NCBI RefSeq assembly: GCF_000384075.1
Contig: NZ_KB913025.1
Coordinates: 3,657,721 to 3,721,720, forward strand
Length of the DNA: 64,000 bases
Reading direction: 5' to 3'
DNA from: Methylovulum miyakonense HT12
Lineage (GTDB): Bacteria; Pseudomonadota; Gammaproteobacteria; Methylococcales; Methylomonadaceae
Shown: positions 1-7,957 of the stretch, one piece after another
How the letters are laid out: every line of letters starts with the position of its first letter
Position numbering within the stretch: position 1 is the stretch's first letter
Position numbers and translations under genes: made by a program
The notes under the pieces: generated by a model
What the model was told of the DNA's origin: nothing
Database searches by the model: none
Seen by the model: the letters and a program-made list of their open reading frames with translations, nothing else

Positions 1-3000
1 CGTAAGGCCTGATCCTTGCTTGCCGCGTCGATTTTGCCTTGCCGGGCGCGTTCACGGACATTTTGCGCCAAACGGCCAAAATCGCCGATGTCTTCATAGC
101 CGCCAGCGATGCGCTGGTAAACCTGTTCGTCGATTTGCCGGCCTGAAAACAATGGCTCCAGACTGGCCAGCATGGCTTGCGTGTGTTCGGGATGACCGTC
201 GTCCTGATAGGCTTTGGCCAAGGCTGTCAGCGCATTGCGGGCAAATTTCAGGAACGCACCGAAAGCCGCTTCGGACACTGGCTGACCGCCGTTGCCCAGG
301 GTTTCAATGGCCTGGCGGTAATTATCGGAAAAACGGTCGGACTCGGCTTGCGCCGTCGCAAAACCGGTTTGGCGCTGGTTCAGGGCACGGGCCTGGGCAA
401 TGCGGGCGGCCAACTGGCGGCGGGTTTCCAACGCCACCGCAGGCCGCTCATCCATCGCTTTGTTGGAGCTTTCTATGCCTTTTTCCTGACGGAATCCGGC
501 CACCAGCCCCTGCCGCTGTGCCGATAACAATTGGGCAACAAGGCTTTCATCCATATCGCCTGCGCTGCCACCCAACGATGCAATACCGTTGGCAAAGCCC
601 GTCATCGCGGCATGGATTTCGTTTTCGTCTGCGCCGACAAACAAATACAATCCACCCAAGGCCAGAAAACCAATAAAATCCAACTCCGCCAAGGTCAAAC
701 CGCTGCCGATACGCACTAAGGCTTCCACCAGCATCCGGTCGCGTCCGCTGTCACGGCCGAAACGGCCTAGCTTATCGGTTTCAGTTAAGGCCGACTGGAT
801 TTCATGATCCTGCTGGATTTCGCCGACAACACGCGCGTAAAGCTGGTTGGCAAGCGTAAGATTTTGGGAAGTTAAAGCTTGCCAAAGCCGTTCGGCGCGA
901 CGACGGCGACGGCGCATGTCCGAACGCCAGGCTTCGACGGTTTGCTGGCCCACGCCCACGCTTAAATAGATGGATTCTTTGCCCAGGCGTTCGGCGGCGG
1001 CAAACCAGAGCATGACATCGCCACGGTTCATCGCCCGATGCCTAGCCCCGGCTGCGCCATCGGCAATCACCAGGGCGCTGTTCGGGTTTCCTTCCAACAT
1101 CAGGCGGCAAAGCCGGGCGGGGTCGGCCAGCAATTCCAGCAGGCTGCGGTGGGGAATGCCGGTGTCGATGACATCCGCGCCCTGCACGGCGTATCCGTAA
1201 TGCCGATCCGGCCCCAACACGGCTAGCGCCAGCGCATGGATACGTCCGCCCAGCCGCTCCTGTAAATCCGCGCCAAGCACCGAACGATAATCCCATCGGC
1301 CCAAGCGGCCGCCCCAGGTGCGCAAATTGGCTTCGATTTCCTTATCGCTCAAGCCCAGCGCCAGCAACTCCCGGCGGGTTGCATCGGCGATGGCTTCAAG
1401 CCGGGTGTCGCTGGTGTAATTCAGCAAATCCTGGGTGGACAAGCCTGTCGGCGAAACCATGCGGATTTCCGCAGGCGGCTTGGCGGGCGGGAACAACGGG
1501 GGCAACTGGGCGATGGCGGCCTGGTCATCTCCGTTTATCCCCATCATGTCCCGGATACGGCCATCCCAACCGCGCTGCCGCACACTGGCAAAGCCTTCGT
1601 TCATTAGCACGGCAACCATGCGGCCATCCAGGTCAAGGGCGTGCAGCAAATGCCCGCCGGTACCCGCCAAGATTTCAAACTTGCGCAAACCGGTGGCGAA
1701 ACGGGCATCCTGGGTGTCGGGTTTGTATTCGGCGGTCAGCACGACCACGCAGTTTTCAAAATTGATGGCAATGTCAGGACGGCGGCGGGCGGCTTCGGCA
1801 ACGCCCTGGCGGATCAGCCAGGATTTGAAGAAGGGCATGAAGCGGTTGACCTGCTCGCCGCCAGTCACCATTTTATGCAAGCCCCAACCGGCGGCCAGGC
1901 CGGAGGCGACCCGATAAGGATCACGCAGCTGCGGTTTGCCCAAATGCTCCAGGACATGCGCGATACGGGTGATCTGGAACACCGGCAGGCCACGGCTGAC
2001 GCTGAAATAAGGTTTCAGGCAATCTTGCCGCTGCAATTGTCCGGCGGCCCAGTGTTCCCATTCCAATGGGCTGGCAAATTCCGGTTTGCGGTCGAGCAAA
2101 CGGTTGGCCAGCGCGACAACGGCTTGATGGTACATTTCGGGCAAACCGATCTGGCGTAGTTTTTCCGTCCGGTTCAAGGTCAACACGAATTCCAGGAACA
2201 ACCCGTCCTTGGGCACACAATAACCGCCGTAACCTTCTCCAGCGGGATGGATAAAACGGTCGGAACGCTGGTTCATCAAATCCGCCATCGCCTCGAAATC
2301 GCCGTGCGCCGATGCCGTCACCATCATGCCCAAGGCATTGGAAAAACCGAAATGCGAAGCCATAGACGCATTTTCACCCGTTTTCAGTATTTCCGGCTCG
2401 GTCAGGCTTTCAAAACAACGCACATCTTTATTGATCAGGCTGTAGATTTGCCGCCCCACTTGGGCGGCGGCGCGGTCGGCACCGCCCACCCATTGCGCCC
2501 AGGTTTCCACGGACTCGCGCTCGCGTTTGCCCAAATCCACGCGGCTGGGGGTGTAAATCAGATGATAACGTTTACCGCCGCCGCTGGCTTTGAAGTAATA
2601 CAGCGGGCTCAGCGTCAGGTGGTTCAGGCCGCCCTCGGCAATAATCTCCTTGCGGGCGGTGGTTTTGCGCAACTGTTGGAAACGGCGCAGATAGGTTTCG
2701 CGGCATCCGTTTAGATGCCGTTCCGGGTATTCGGCATCCAAAGCCGCCAATACCCGGCGGCGGGCAGTTTGGCGCGTGTAGGCTTGCAGGTCTTCACGGT
2801 AATATTCATCCGCCAAAACCCTGCGGCGCAAGGCATCGTCGGTGCAATCCCCATCCGTCTGGCTAGCCAACATGTCGCGGTTGCGGGCGATAACCTGTGC
2901 CAGCGCCGCTTCCTGCAAGGCTTCGGTATGCTTACGCAAATAATCTTCCACCGCTTCCGGCTCATCACAGTCTTCGGCGTTTTTGCGGCCTTGCCGGGTT

Positions 3001-5351
3001 TCCTCAAATTCCAGCAAGGCCCCCAGGCAGGACAGTTCATCCTGGATCAGGCGGTTCCGGTTGATGACCCTTAATACGGCGGCGGTTTGCGGGATTTGCT
3101 CGCTGGCGCATAACTCTTCGACTTCTATCCAAACACCCAGCTCGCGGATGACTTTCTCGCCCAAACTCAGGATACGGGCGGCAAAAAATGCCTCGCGTCC
3201 GGCTATTTGCCCGTGCAACTGCAAGTCTTCGGCGATGTTGAACAAAGCCATCGACTCTTCCAGCCAAGTGCGGATGTAGCCTTCGGTCATGCCCGCCGAT
3301 TGGGTGGTCAGCACATGCAGGGTCGGCAACGGACGCCGGGGCTTGAAGGCTTGGGCTTTAAACCGGGAACACTGCTGGTCGAAACCGTCGTTTTGCAGTA
3401 ACGCCTTAACCGATGCCGTCCAGGAACCGGTAATGCGCTGATGTTGCTCCAGCGGCATCAAACGGCCGTCGGCCAGCAGGATTTGGCGCAGGGCCTCGAA
3501 CGGCGCAAGCTCTTCGGCTTCAACCAGTGCCTGGATGTCACGGATACGCGCTTGGTAAACGTCGGCAAGAAACACCGCCACGGCGGCAATTTCGTCACCA
3601 TCACCTGCTTCGCGCAAACGCTGGCGCAGGCCGTCTTCATCAAGACCGGGGAAGTTTCCGGCGGCAACACATTCTCTCGCCAAACAAAGCAACTCGCTGT
3701 CCAGGACTTGGCGGAGATTGCCCGCCCACAAGTCAGCCATTTCTTCACGGAAGGACACTTCCATGCCGGAAATGTCGATGACGGTACGGGTGGTTTCCTG
3801 CCCGTCCTGCACCAGCACTTCTTCCTTGATGAACAGCGGGATGGCCTCTATCCAATGGTCGGCGACGGCGAGCCAGCCATAATCGGGGCTGCTGTAAATG
3901 CGGTCTCCTGCCAGCCGGACCAGCTTGCGCAGGTTTTCTGACTTGCCCGGATACGGGTCTTGGAATTCGTTGATTTTAACCAGCAAATGCGATCCGGTAG
4001 GCGAAGGCCGTTGGCTGATGACGACATACGCAGCGGGGCGTTTGGCCGCGGCCAAAAATGCCTGGCGTATGCCATCGACCAGACGCAAGCCCTGCCCTGC
4101 CCGCGCCATGATAGCCTCGTGTGCGGCCATTGGCTGAAATGGCCTGGCCAACGGGTCGCTATGGTCTTCCACCCGGGTGCGGGAACCCATCAGCGCATCC
4201 TCCAAAGCCTTTTTTTGCCCGTCCAGAACCGCCGCTTCGAAACGTTCGCAAGCGCCTTCCAGCGCCGTCAGCGGGATTTCGGTGGCACTGTCCAGCAACA
4301 ACGCCAATGCCCCGGCGCTAGACTGTAAATCCGGGGATTGGTGCGCCAGCACAGGCAATTCAGCCGCCAGTTCCCGCCAACCCGGAGCAGGCGTCAGCCA
4401 TACCGCGTTGGCGAACAGCGTCGCCTGGTTGTGGAAAGCCCGGCTCATGCGCCCGAAAACCAGTTGTTGGCGGGCTGCGCGCACTTCGGAGGCAATACGT
4501 TGAATATTGCGCTGTTCCAAGCGTTTGTCGTAACCGCGCAGCAGACGGTAAAGCCGCGCACGCTGTTCGTCCACGTTGGTTTCATTCTGCAGGATGTCCA
4601 ACGCCGCCTGGCGCGGATAAGGCAGGTCAATCCTGTCCTGCCCCAGCAGCCAGGTGATCTGCTGGTCTTGCCATACTTCCGGCTGAAGGTTTCCGATGCC
4701 GGTGGCAGGGGTTGAAGCGGCGCGTTTCAGGAAAATGCCAAACAAGTTGCCGCTATCCAGGCGGCTTTCCTCCAACACGCCATGTAGGCTATCGCGTTCG
4801 GCTTTTGAAAACGAGGCGTAGAGCCTGACGGTTTTGGCAAGCGCCTGACGCGGCGGACAATCCAGCAGCCAGCGCAAAAAAAGATGGTGGTGGCCCAGCA
4901 TCAGCAAGGTTTCCAAACTTTGCTGGCCTTCCGCCTTAAGGGTGGGCTCATCACCCCGAAAAGTTGCATCGGGATCACCATAAAGCCCGGCCAAGTCGCA
5001 GGCGACCAATAGGACGCCGCCACTGTCAAGTTCCAACAAATGCCCCTGGCCTTCGGTAAAGGCGACAGGCAACTCGCGCCCGGCCAATTTTTCCAGTATG
5101 TCCATGTTGGGGCCATCCGCTTTAAGACGGGAAAGCATCCGTTCCAGGGCGTTTCCACACAGTTGCGCGGTAATGGCTACCCGGCTGCCGGTATCGCCGA
5201 AAACGCTGACTTGCAGCCCTTCCAAAAGATTTTGCCCGAAACGGTAGGCGCCCCGGGCAACAACAACGCCAGCGCCACGGCGGCCACGCGAAGTCCCGTT
5301 GTCCGTATTAAGCTGATCGGCAATACGCAGGGGGAAGTTGTAGTTATTCAC
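1..5351 (-). CDS. giant uncharacterised protein, N-terminal 1783 residues (partial)
   Basis: One uninterrupted reading frame runs from a GTG at 5351 off the left edge of the window. The frame has no ATG in its first codons, and an in-frame stop at 5364-5366 (the stop of the gene before it) fixes GTG as the start. An AGGA motif lies about 9 nt upstream. The product is rich in Ala, Leu, Glu and Arg, with no signal peptide and no long hydrophobic segment, so it looks cytosolic. I recognise no domain. One visible motif is Gly/Cys-rich, GEGYGGYCVPKD near residue 1040, faintly like the GGSCFPKD loop of UDP-sugar dehydrogenases, but the surroundings do not fit that family. A run of arginines near residue 1480 follows a DVMLWFAAAERLG segment. 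Expression is probably coupled to the MASE1 gene 12 nt upstream. Function unknown; the C-terminus lies outside the window. Confidence 0.85.
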   Translation of the reverse strand, partial: MNNYNFPLRIADQLNTDNGTSRGRRGAGVVVARGAYRFGQNLLEGLQVSVFGDTGSRVAITAQLCGNALERMLSRLKADGPNMDILEKLAGRELPVAFTEGQGHLLELDSGGVLLVACDLAGLYGDPDATFRGDEPTLKAEGQQSLETLLMLGHHHLFLRWLLDCPPRQALAKTVRLYASFSKAERDSLHGVLEESRLDSGNLFGIFLKRAASTPATGIGNLQPEVWQDQQITWLLGQDRIDLPYPRQAALDILQNETNVDEQRARLYRLLRGYDKRLEQRNIQRIASEVRAARQQLVFGRMSRAFHNQATLFANAVWLTPAPGWRELAAELPVLAHQSPDLQSSAGALALLLDSATEIPLTALEGACERFEAAVLDGQKKALEDALMGSRTRVEDHSDPLARPFQPMAAHEAIMARAGQGLRLVDGIRQAFLAAAKRPAAYVVISQRPSPTGSHLLVKINEFQDPYPGKSENLRKLVRLAGDRIYSSPDYGWLAVADHWIEAIPLFIKEEVLVQDGQETTRTVIDISGMEVSFREEMADLWAGNLRQVLDSELLCLARECVAAGNFPGLDEDGLRQRLREAGDGDEIAAVAVFLADVYQARIRDIQALVEAEELAPFEALRQILLADGRLMPLEQHQRITGSWTASVKALLQNDGFDQQCSRFKAQAFKPRRPLPTLHVLTTQSAGMTEGYIRTWLEESMALFNIAEDLQLHGQIAGREAFFAARILSLGEKVIRELGVWIEVEELCASEQIPQTAAVLRVINRNRLIQDELSCLGALLEFEETRQGRKNAEDCDEPEAVEDYLRKHTEALQEAALAQVIARNRDMLASQTDGDCTDDALRRRVLADEYYREDLQAYTRQTARRRVLAALDAEYPERHLNGCRETYLRRFQQLRKTTARKEIIAEGGLNHLTLSPLYYFKASGGGKRYHLIYTPSRVDLGKRERESVETWAQWVGGADRAAAQVGRQIYSLINKDVRCFESLTEPEILKTGENASMASHFGFSNALGMMVTASAHGDFEAMADLMNQRSDRFIHPAGEGYGGYCVPKDGLFLEFVLTLNRTEKLRQIGLPEMYHQAVVALANRLLDRKPEFASPLEWEHWAAGQLQRQDCLKPYFSVSRGLPVFQITRIAHVLEHLGKPQLRDPYRVASGLAAGWGLHKMVTGGEQVNRFMPFFKSWLIRQGVAEAARRRPDIAINFENCVVVLTAEYKPDTQDARFATGLRKFEILAGTGGHLLHALDLDGRMVAVLMNEGFASVRQRGWDGRIRDMMGINGDDQAAIAQLPPLFPPAKPPAEIRMVSPTGLSTQDLLNYTSDTRLEAIADATRRELLALGLSDKEIEANLRTWGGRLGRWDYRSVLGADLQERLGGRIHALALAVLGPDRHYGYAVQGADVIDTGIPHRSLLELLADPARLCRLMLEGNPNSALVIADGAAGARHRAMNRGDVMLWFAAAERLGKESIYLSVGVGQQTVEAWRSDMRRRRRRAERLWQALTSQNLTLANQLYARVVGEIQQDHEIQSALTETDKLGRFGRDSGRDRMLVEALVRIGSGLTLAELDFIGFLALGGLYLFVGADENEIHAAMTGFANGIASLGGSAGDMDESLVAQLLSAQRQGLVAGFRQEKGIESSNKAMDERPAVALETRRQLAARIAQARALNQRQTGFATAQAESDRFSDNYRQAIETLGNGGQPVSEAAFGAFLKFARNALTALAKAYQDDGHPEHTQAMLASLEPLFSGRQIDEQVYQRIAGGYEDIGDFGRLAQNVRERARQGKIDAASKDQAL

Positions 5352-5363
5352 ACGTATCGGTTC

Positions 5364-6383
5364 CTAATAACAGGGTAAGGTGATTTGCCGGGAAAAGATG
5401 GCTCCCCGCCCGCACCGGTGTAAACCATTCCCACCGTTTTTTCCAGAGCCAAAGCTTGCATGAGGCAAAATGGAGGCCAATACCGAACCAATAGCTGATG
5501 ACACGAGCGTGTAGAACCAGAAATTGGCCACGCCTTTGTGAAAATCGCCCGCGCCGAAATAACCGACATGCCGGATTAGCCCCAACAAGCCTTGTACCGC
5601 TATGACCAACAGGATTAGCAAAGCGCCGTGTGATTCAAAGCGGACGGCCCCCCACACTAAAAACACGAACATCCAAAAACCCAACATCGGCTCCAACACA
5701 TCATTAAACCAGCCAAGAAAAATGATCTGCCCGAAGAGCCAGCTCAAGCCAAAACAAGCGATGGTTTCCAGCACCCGATCCGCTTTGAACCAACCGATAG
5801 GCGGTTGCCGCCACACCAAGATTAGCGGAGCCATCAAAACGATGCCTAGAAAATCGCCCTGCCACCAGTTAAGCCCGATCGAGAGATAGTCCTGTGCCGT
5901 TAAAGGCCCGGACAACCGTAAGGCGCCCGTGCCGATCACCGCGCTCACACATGAGCTGACCATACCGGCCGCACCTACGATAAAATAATTTTTAGGGTCT
6001 TTTAGGACAAGGTCAAAATGGCGGTTGCGGGCCAACAGCCAAAACCCTGCCAATGCTTCCAAGGTGTTACCCAAGGCGATAAAGGTGGAGATGGCCAGTG
6101 GATTGCCGGTCATGAAGCTGCCAAGCAATGCCCCGATAAAAACACCTGGCCAGTATTTTTTACCGCCTATCAGCAATGCGGCGAGTGCGAGGCCGCTACA
6201 AGGCCAAACGATGGAAACCCAGCCGTTAACGGAAAAAAAACTGATGGAAATTTTCGCAAATACTGCGTATACGGCGGCCAGAAGCGCTAATTTGAGTAAA
6301 TAAGGCTTATAAGAAGCTGTTATGTGATCCAAGCATACACACCGTAGGATAAGTTGATGTTTTTGAAGTTTAACAATGATCAT
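5364..6383 (-). CDS. stand-alone MASE1-domain membrane protein
   Basis: The protein (339 aa) has about eight hydrophobic segments. The pattern, including NGWVSIVWPCSGLALAALL, then LNWWQGDFLGIVLMAPL and WGAVRFESHGA, is typical of the MASE1 integral-membrane sensory domain. MASE1 normally precedes a histidine kinase, GGDEF or EAL module. Here the frame ends about 30 residues after the last membrane segment in a Gly/Arg-rich tail with no output domain, so it is either a natural stand-alone sensor or a truncated receptor. Its stop lies 12 nt before the GTG of the giant downstream gene, which suggests one transcript. The ATG at 6383 has no clear Shine-Dalgarno, so the exact start is uncertain. Confidence 0.8.
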   Translation of the reverse strand: MIIVKLQKHQLILRCVCLDHITASYKPYLLKLALLAAVYAVFAKISISFFSVNGWVSIVWPCSGLALAALLIGGKKYWPGVFIGALLGSFMTGNPLAISTFIALGNTLEALAGFWLLARNRHFDLVLKDPKNYFIVGAAGMVSSCVSAVIGTGALRLSGPLTAQDYLSIGLNWWQGDFLGIVLMAPLILVWRQPPIGWFKADRVLETIACFGLSWLFGQIIFLGWFNDVLEPMLGFWMFVFLVWGAVRFESHGALLILLVIAVQGLLGLIRHVGYFGAGDFHKGVANFWFYTLVSSAIGSVLASILPHASFGSGKNGGNGLHRCGRGAIFSRQITLPCY

Positions 6384-6892
6384 GGAAATTGTACAAACGG
6401 ATATTCATATCGGACAACGTAGATCTGGCCGCCCCTTTTTGTGGCCCATCATCTATCATTTTTGTTTAGTGGTTTTTGCGCTTTGGCGGTATTGCCATGT
6501 CCAATAAGCCAATCAAAGGGCACGCCGCCCATTGGCGGTTTTGTAGTTTTGGTTTTTATTAAGGCTAGGCAGCTTCGCTTAAGCCCGCGGATGTTGAACG
6601 GCAATTTTCTGGCCCTTACCCGCGTTATCCTAAAATTATTGATAGGCCGCCTTTGCGCCGGACTGGAGCCATCAGTGTCAAATCCAATTCCAAAGAAGGA
6701 TAAACCAACCAATGGACATGGCTTTGGCAGTTTGTAGCGGGCGCTTAACATCAGCTACAATGGGAAGGCACGGCTGCATTCTTGATCCCTCCATCATCCC
6801 CAATCAACACCGGCCCAAAGCACCTTTGCCGCCTAACGACGGGAGTTGGCGTTTTGCAGATGTATGTCATAGGACATGACAAAACTTTAACT
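6384..6892. other. intergenic region, no convincing gene
   Basis: About 500 bases separate the MASE1 gene from the divergent HD-GYP regulator. Open frames of about 100 codons exist on both strands near 6441-6751, but both are low-complexity, lack Shine-Dalgarno sequences and resemble no family I know. The region probably holds the two divergent promoters. No strong inverted repeat was noticed. Confidence 0.5.
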
Positions 6893-7957
6893 ATGGCCCT
6901 GATGCTCATGGATACGAAAAACGTTGAAATATTGATTGTTGATGACACCCCTGCAAACTTGCAGTTGCTGGCGGGCATACTCAAGGATGAGGGTTACAAA
7001 GTCCGCCCGGCGTCCAGCGGCAGGATAGCCCTGGACGCCATCGCCAAAAGGCTACCTGACCTGATCCTGCTCGACATCAAAATGCCGGAAATGGACGGTT
7101 ACGAAGTCTGTGCGGCACTGAAGGGCAACCCGCTCACCGCACCTATCCCCGTGCTATTCATCAGCGCCCTGACCGACGTCAATGACAAACTCAAGGCCTT
7201 TAGTGTCGGCGGCCTTGATTACATCAGCAAACCCTTCCAATTTGAAGAAGTGAAGGCCAGGGTTTCCACCCACCTGCAATTGAAGGCCTTGCAAAACCAA
7301 ATGGAGCAGAAGATTGAAGAAGGCATCAACAAGATCCAGGCGCTTAACCAGGAAATCCTTGACACCCAACGCGAAGTGATCCTGACCCTGGGCGAAATTT
7401 GCGAGACACGCTCCCATGAAACCGGCCTGCATGTCAAACGGGTGGCGGACTATTCCTACTTGCTGGCGCAACTGTCTGGCTGCGCCGACGCCGAACTGAT
7501 CAAACAAGCCTCGCCTATGCACGACATAGGCAAAGTGGCGATACCGGACCGCATCCTCAACAAACCCGGCCCATTGACCCCGGATGAATGGGAAATCATG
7601 AAAACCCATAGCCAACTAGGTTTCCAGATGCTATCGGTGTCCAGCCGCCCGCTGCTTAATTTGGCGGCGATCATCGCCCACCAGCATCATGAGAAATGGG
7701 ATGGCAGCGGCTACCCGCAAGGCCTGAAAGGTGAAGATATCCACATCGCCGGGCGGGTGACCGCCATTGCCGATGTCCTGGATGCTTTAGGCCATAAGCG
7801 TTGTTATAAGCCCGCTTGGGAACTCGACAAGATTTTGGCCTTGTTTAAGGAAGAACGGGGCAAGCATTTTGATCCGGCGTTAATCGACTTGTTTTTCAAT
7901 CATCTCGACCAGTTTTTGGCCATCATTGAACACTACCGGCAATTTGAGCATGACTGA
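6893..7957 (+). CDS. response regulator with HD-GYP c-di-GMP phosphodiesterase domain
   Basis: An N-terminal receiver domain (ILIVDDTPANL; phospho-acceptor Asp in LILLDIKMPEMDG near residue 61) is followed by a coiled linker and an HD-GYP domain with HDIGKVAIPD near residue 210 and the complete HHEKWDGSGYP signature. All hallmark residues are present, so it should hydrolyse cyclic di-GMP when phosphorylated (RpfG-like). The frame is open further upstream; ATG at 6893 was chosen because the receiver fold begins just after it, but ATG 6902 or 6908 is equally possible and none has a strong Shine-Dalgarno. The hybrid kinase encoded at 11061 is a plausible partner. A second REC/HD-GYP protein lies at 29287. 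Confidence 0.93.
   Translation: MALMLMDTKNVEILIVDDTPANLQLLAGILKDEGYKVRPASSGRIALDAIAKRLPDLILLDIKMPEMDGYEVCAALKGNPLTAPIPVLFISALTDVNDKLKAFSVGGLDYISKPFQFEEVKARVSTHLQLKALQNQMEQKIEEGINKIQALNQEILDTQREVILTLGEICETRSHETGLHVKRVADYSYLLAQLSGCADAELIKQASPMHDIGKVAIPDRILNKPGPLTPDEWEIMKTHSQLGFQMLSVSSRPLLNLAAIIAHQHHEKWDGSGYPQGLKGEDIHIAGRVTAIADVLDALGHKRCYKPAWELDKILALFKEERGKHFDPALIDLFFNHLDQFLAIIEHYRQFEHD

Follow-up and report, generated by a model that had tools for sequence, protein, structure and literature searches.

NDP-sugar dehydrogenases, such as those acting on UDP-glucose and UDP-ManNAc, are proteins of about 425 aa recognized by the models TIGR03026 and PF00984. A survey of 229 of these enzymes identified 18 invariant residues (PMC4794789). 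In the human enzyme, the active-site cysteine forms both a thiohemiacetal and a thioester, while a lysine and an aspartate act in catalysis (PMC3184952). Two other described systems deal with glucuronate. In zebrafish, a glucuronokinase is fused to a putative UDP-glucuronate pyrophosphorylase, an arrangement known to serve the salvage of glucuronate (PMC3938481). Cj1438 of Campylobacter jejuni is a fusion of a GT2 glycosyltransferase with a TupA-like ATP-grasp amidoligase, which amidates the C6 carboxylate of GlcA (PMC11800379).

In this study, a stretch of 64,000 nucleotides from Methylovulum miyakonense HT12 (the window) was analyzed, which begins inside a gene for a giant protein. The giant shares with NDP-sugar dehydrogenases the equivalents of E201, K204, N208 and N219, the GGxCxPKD loop and possibly the FKPxTDDxR motif. 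In contrast to them, it is 2,485 aa long, has no detectable NAD-binding domain, carries serine in place of Glu141 and a long insertion before the C-terminal motif, and has about 2,000 unassigned residues around the core. As in zebrafish, a GHMP sugar kinase and a uridylyltransferase-type gene occur together (at locus L042 and on a Rufibacter plasmid); however, these are separate genes, and the likeness is one of arrangement. The giant system would resemble Cj1438 in joining uronate chemistry with ATP-grasp, a likeness of proposed chemistry and not of sequence. No glycosyltransferase was found here, and whereas Cj1438 belongs to a capsule system, the giant lies in a small operon in which export genes are not obvious.

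The giant protein and its dehydrogenase-like core

The frame of the giant gene is unbroken in its own genome, a single contig of 4,687,143 bp (Table 1). The first-pass annotation had described a continuous, well-coded frame of at least 1783 residues, starting with GTG and continuing past the window, and both observations held. The full protein aligned with its relatives end to end at 51–75% identity, homologues began at the same position, and NG86 dN/dS was 0.10–0.22 in four comparisons with saturated dS. The giant frame is coding and under strong purifying selection. Its only candidate transmembrane stretch, at aa 1554, is borderline, and profile comparison of its segments with each other revealed no internal repeats.

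Table 1. Features of the giant locus. Positions written with two dots refer to the window; those written with a hyphen refer to the contig of the same genome.
Feature	Position	Strand	Remarks
Giant gene, part in the window	3..5351	minus	Residues 1-1783 of 2,485 aa; GTG start at 5351
Giant gene, remainder outside the window	3655614-3657722	minus	
ATP-grasp partner gene	3654137-3655630	minus	Before the window
GHMP kinase gene	about 3653041-3654051	minus	Before the window
MASE1 protein	5364..6383	minus	PF05231, E 1.6e-26; 12 nt upstream of the giant, same strand
Nucleotide-sugar-dehydrogenase-like core, aa 925-1057	2181..2579	minus	End of NAD-domain region, central domain, catalytic loop
PSRV, aa 935-938 (P935, S936)	2538..2549	minus	Ser replaces the family-invariant Glu141 in each of the 12 giants
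PEILKTGEN, aa 986-994	2370..2396	minus	E987, K990, N994 correspond to SpUGDH Glu201, Lys204, Asn208; invariant; roles from PMC4794789
GGYCVPKD, catalytic cysteine loop, aa 1042-1049	2205..2228	minus	C1045, D1049 invariant; PMC4794789, PMC3184952
KPDTQDAR, aa 1210-1217	1701..1724	minus	Resembles UDP-binding FKPxTDDxR (Lys320, Arg327) of the UGDH C-terminal domain

Eleven full-length relatives were identified, with a patchy distribution in Methylococcales; the giant is present in 15 of the 301 genomes of this order. Two named relatives, Methyloglobulus morosus KoM1 and a Methylovulum MAG, likewise belong to this order. No giant was found outside the order: in 369 genomes of the class and 398 of the phylum (overlapping draws), the only match was the own genome. 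None was found in plasmids, phages or viral contigs. A scan of genome contigs with exact peptides missed the relatives at 53–56% identity. The tree of the 12 full-length proteins set two bacterial families cleanly apart, which is compatible with old residence and many losses, and the genes flanking the giant vary from locus to locus. Across the Methylococcales, class and phylum samples, the giant is a conserved, previously unclassified family, so far present only in some methane-eating bacteria.

According to the first-pass annotation, the protein resembles no known domain. This is still accurate for most of its length: the parts outside aa 925-1057 are mostly without significant match in Pfam, NCBIfam or solved structures, and aa 400-700 and 1290-1790 yielded nothing significant against PDB and Pfam. 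However, aa 925-1057 hold a divergent UDP-sugar-dehydrogenase core. In a profile-profile comparison (hhalign), of the kind that the annotation had recommended, this core matched a UGDH profile from the same order with a probability of 94.6% and E 6.5e-8 at only 26% identity. The core also matched TIGR03026 (E 1.1e-15, under that model's full-length cut-off), PF00984 (26.1 bits, cut-off 25.4) and PDB 4r16 (E 4.7e-6). PF00984 was matched by all 12 giant members, with a best E of 6.6e-6. Two AlphaFold models of the giant, built on alignments of only 3 and 2 sequences, had pLDDT of 36 and 34 and were unusable. Consequently, no fold backs any giant domain outside the core, and with alignments so restricted AlphaFold could not decide between the functional readings.

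Ten of the 18 residues invariant in NDP-sugar dehydrogenases lie in the matched stretch, and nine of these are invariant in all 12 giants: P935, E987, K990, N994, N1005, G1042, G1043, C1045 and D1049, the counterparts of P140, E201, K204, N208, N219, G257, G258, C260 and D264, respectively. Further towards the C-terminus, N1169, K1210 and R1217 are invariant and in the expected order; however, the N287 equivalent (N1169) was placed by eye, and the stretch is not significant alone. The likeness of KPDTQDAR to FKPxTDDxR is suggestive only, since the K320 motif by itself gave P 0.08 in hhalign. The NAD domain of UGDH (GxGxxG, T83, S117 and T118; six invariant residues) had no hhalign match in aa 1-925 or 1230-2485, and no GxGxxG is invariant in the 12 giants except within the cysteine loop. 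With nine residues invariant and those of the NAD domain not found, the giant retains the chemistry half of a UDP-sugar-dehydrogenase site, the redox half being missing or unrecognizable, possibly as a very divergent domain. We regard it as containing a domain derived from NDP-sugar dehydrogenases; it is not itself classed as one, since a search for Glu141 and for an NAD domain found neither.

Neighboring genes

The gene order in the own genome is MASE1, giant, ATP-grasp and GHMP kinase. The start codon of the ATP-grasp partner overlaps the giant stop by 17 nt, and an ATP-grasp gene is next downstream at all loci that extend beyond the giant 3′ end. The partner profile matched 11 of 201 sampled genomes, every one of which carries the giant. 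All 13 partner proteins matched ATPgrasp_ST (PF14397) at E<1 (best 5.5e-6), and the best match to ATPgrasp_YheCD (PF14398) reached 1.2e-8. The own-genome copy scored under the curated cut-offs of these families, and the partner belongs to an uncharacterized branch. Its residues K274, K315, E476 and N478, the lysines, glutamate and asparagine of the ATP and metal site, are invariant.

The C-terminus of the giant (about aa 1950-2485) looks ATP-grasp-like by eye, with invariant K2101, K2164, SGGR (2169-2172), QE (2210-2211), D2364 and EPN (2417-2419). In three members, the same two ATP-grasp families gave weak matches whose places agreed (E 0.025-0.26, far under cut-offs). Most of the other members had no such match, and unrelated weak matches of similar size, one family each, were seen among them. 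A search against PDB returned nothing for this region, and profile comparison of the giant with the downstream partner indicated no relation. The region is likely an ATP-grasp-like domain, which leaves about aa 1-900 and 1300-1900 of the giant without assignment.

The constant neighbor of the giant is the downstream ATP-grasp gene, not MASE1. The first-pass annotation had correctly placed a MASE1 protein directly upstream in the own genome, an orphan of 339 aa without output domain, and had presented the giant as coupled to this sensor, advising a survey of gene neighborhoods. The short spacing and shared strand in the own genome would suit a giant acting as the output of the sensor. However, direct search found MASE1 upstream at none of the 12 other loci with readable upstream DNA, the outcome that the annotation itself had named as refuting; the coupling is therefore rejected, and the idea of a MASE1 output is hardly credible.

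At most loci, the giant and its partner are followed by a gene for a GHMP sugar kinase, by GalU, or by the two together. The GHMP kinase of the own genome matched PF00288 with 41.0 bits (cut-off 22.3); its nearest NCBIfam model was HddA (3.1e-8, far under its cut-off). We presume it to be akin to plant glucuronokinase. The kinase profile matched 6 of 201 genomes, all with the giant. GalU follows at five loci, scoring above the TIGR01099 cut-off at four and 326.3 against 326.8 at the fifth, and at L042 giant, ATP-grasp, GHMP kinase and GalU stand together. Neither gene is a constant partner, because both are lacking beside the giant-partner pair in G003, G118, G228 and G246. Among the loci read, neither a glycosyltransferase nor an exporter stood out as a constant neighbor.

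Possible function of the giant system

Our preferred reading, still a tentative one, places the giant in a small nucleotide-sugar operon as a soluble enzyme with several domains, the operon forming a UDP-glucuronate-centered, ATP-dependent carboxylate ligase system. This reading draws on the homology to UGDH with its nine invariant residues, the linkage to the ATP-grasp partner, the kinase and GalU neighbors and the kinase-galU pair on the Rufibacter plasmid, and on the precedents of Cj1438 and the zebrafish kinase-pyrophosphorylase fusion; the weak ATP-grasp matches in the C-terminus and the lack of a clear transmembrane stretch also point to it. The kinase and GalU would supply UDP-glucuronate or UDP-glucose, the giant would bind the UDP-sugar, and Cys1045 may handle its C6 carbon as a thioester or a thiohemiacetal. 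Activation of a carboxylate with ATP, giving an amide or ester, would fall to the partner and probably also to the C-terminal ATP-grasp-like domain of the giant. A UDP-uronate in modified form, or a small molecule derived from it, would be the product, and methanotrophs may thus make a uronate-derived metabolite that has so far not been described.

The strongest rival, which we consider possible if doubtful, holds that the giant is an oversized ordinary NAD-dependent UDP-glucose dehydrogenase whose NAD domain has diverged very far and lies before residue 925 or elsewhere, and that it converts the UDP-glucose made by GalU to UDP-glucuronate. The retained active-site cysteine, lysine, asparagine and aspartate and the five loci with adjoining GalU are in line with such an enzyme. 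The giant would then belong to a familiar pathway and stand out there by its unusual size. Against it stand the failure to match a UGDH NAD domain on either side of the core, the serine at the position of Glu141 in 12 of 12 proteins, and two canonical NDP-sugar dehydrogenase genes already present in the genome. The undetectable NAD half and the lost glutamate would instead suit a UDP-sugar-sensing or scaffold module with a non-catalytic cysteine, organizing the ATP-grasp partner and the kinase or GalU, as would the tight genetic link of giant and partner. Yet the equivalents of the catalytic cysteine, lysine, asparagine and aspartate are invariant in 12 divergent proteins, which is needless for mere binding, and we judge this module unlikely.

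An uncharacterized defense or conflict system would fit the patchy occurrence in Methylococcales, the differing flanks and the combination of a giant protein with a partner. However, PADLOC gave no match at E 1 for the giant, the partner, the kinase or the MASE1 protein, the partners are nucleotide-sugar genes, and the split of the tree into two bacterial families fits a gene long resident and repeatedly lost, making defense a poorer candidate still. Within the ligase reading favored here, the UDP-sugar-dehydrogenase site might have been reused without redox: ATP-grasp would load the carboxyl of a UDP-uronate on the cysteine as a thioester, which would be passed to an amine or hydroxyl by an undescribed nucleotide-sugar ligase. 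We rate this specific chemistry as improbable. A half-site under strong selection inside a giant, with no recognizable NAD half, would be an unusual re-purposing of an enzyme.

Features of individual loci

A same-type GHMP kinase (47% identical), directly followed by galU, was found on the Rufibacter tibetensis plasmid NZ_CP012644.1 (Bacteroidota; L062:11998-13936). This plasmid pair occurs without a giant, so the kinase and GalU form a module of their own. Several genes are interrupted. In G246 (L038:6976-14433), one in-frame TAG breaks the giant frame into two ORFs (1041 aa and 1432 aa), reflecting either a pseudogene or an assembly error. The GHMP kinase genes at L056 (G135) and at L055 and L057 (G102) either are split where a contig ends or contain stop codons, of which G135 has two (both TGA).

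In the window, the MASE1 gene adjoins a response regulator gene at 6782-7957 that is transcribed divergently and includes a region recognized by eye as HD-GYP-like. In G087, the giant is directly preceded by genes for ethanolamine ammonia-lyase-like large and small subunits (by eye; L017:167-2362). The Campylobacter capsule has ethanolamine among the amines attached to glucuronate, and these neighbors may be a coincidence. A transposase-like fragment, also recognized by eye, is located downstream of the ATP-grasp gene in G003 (L016:244-564).
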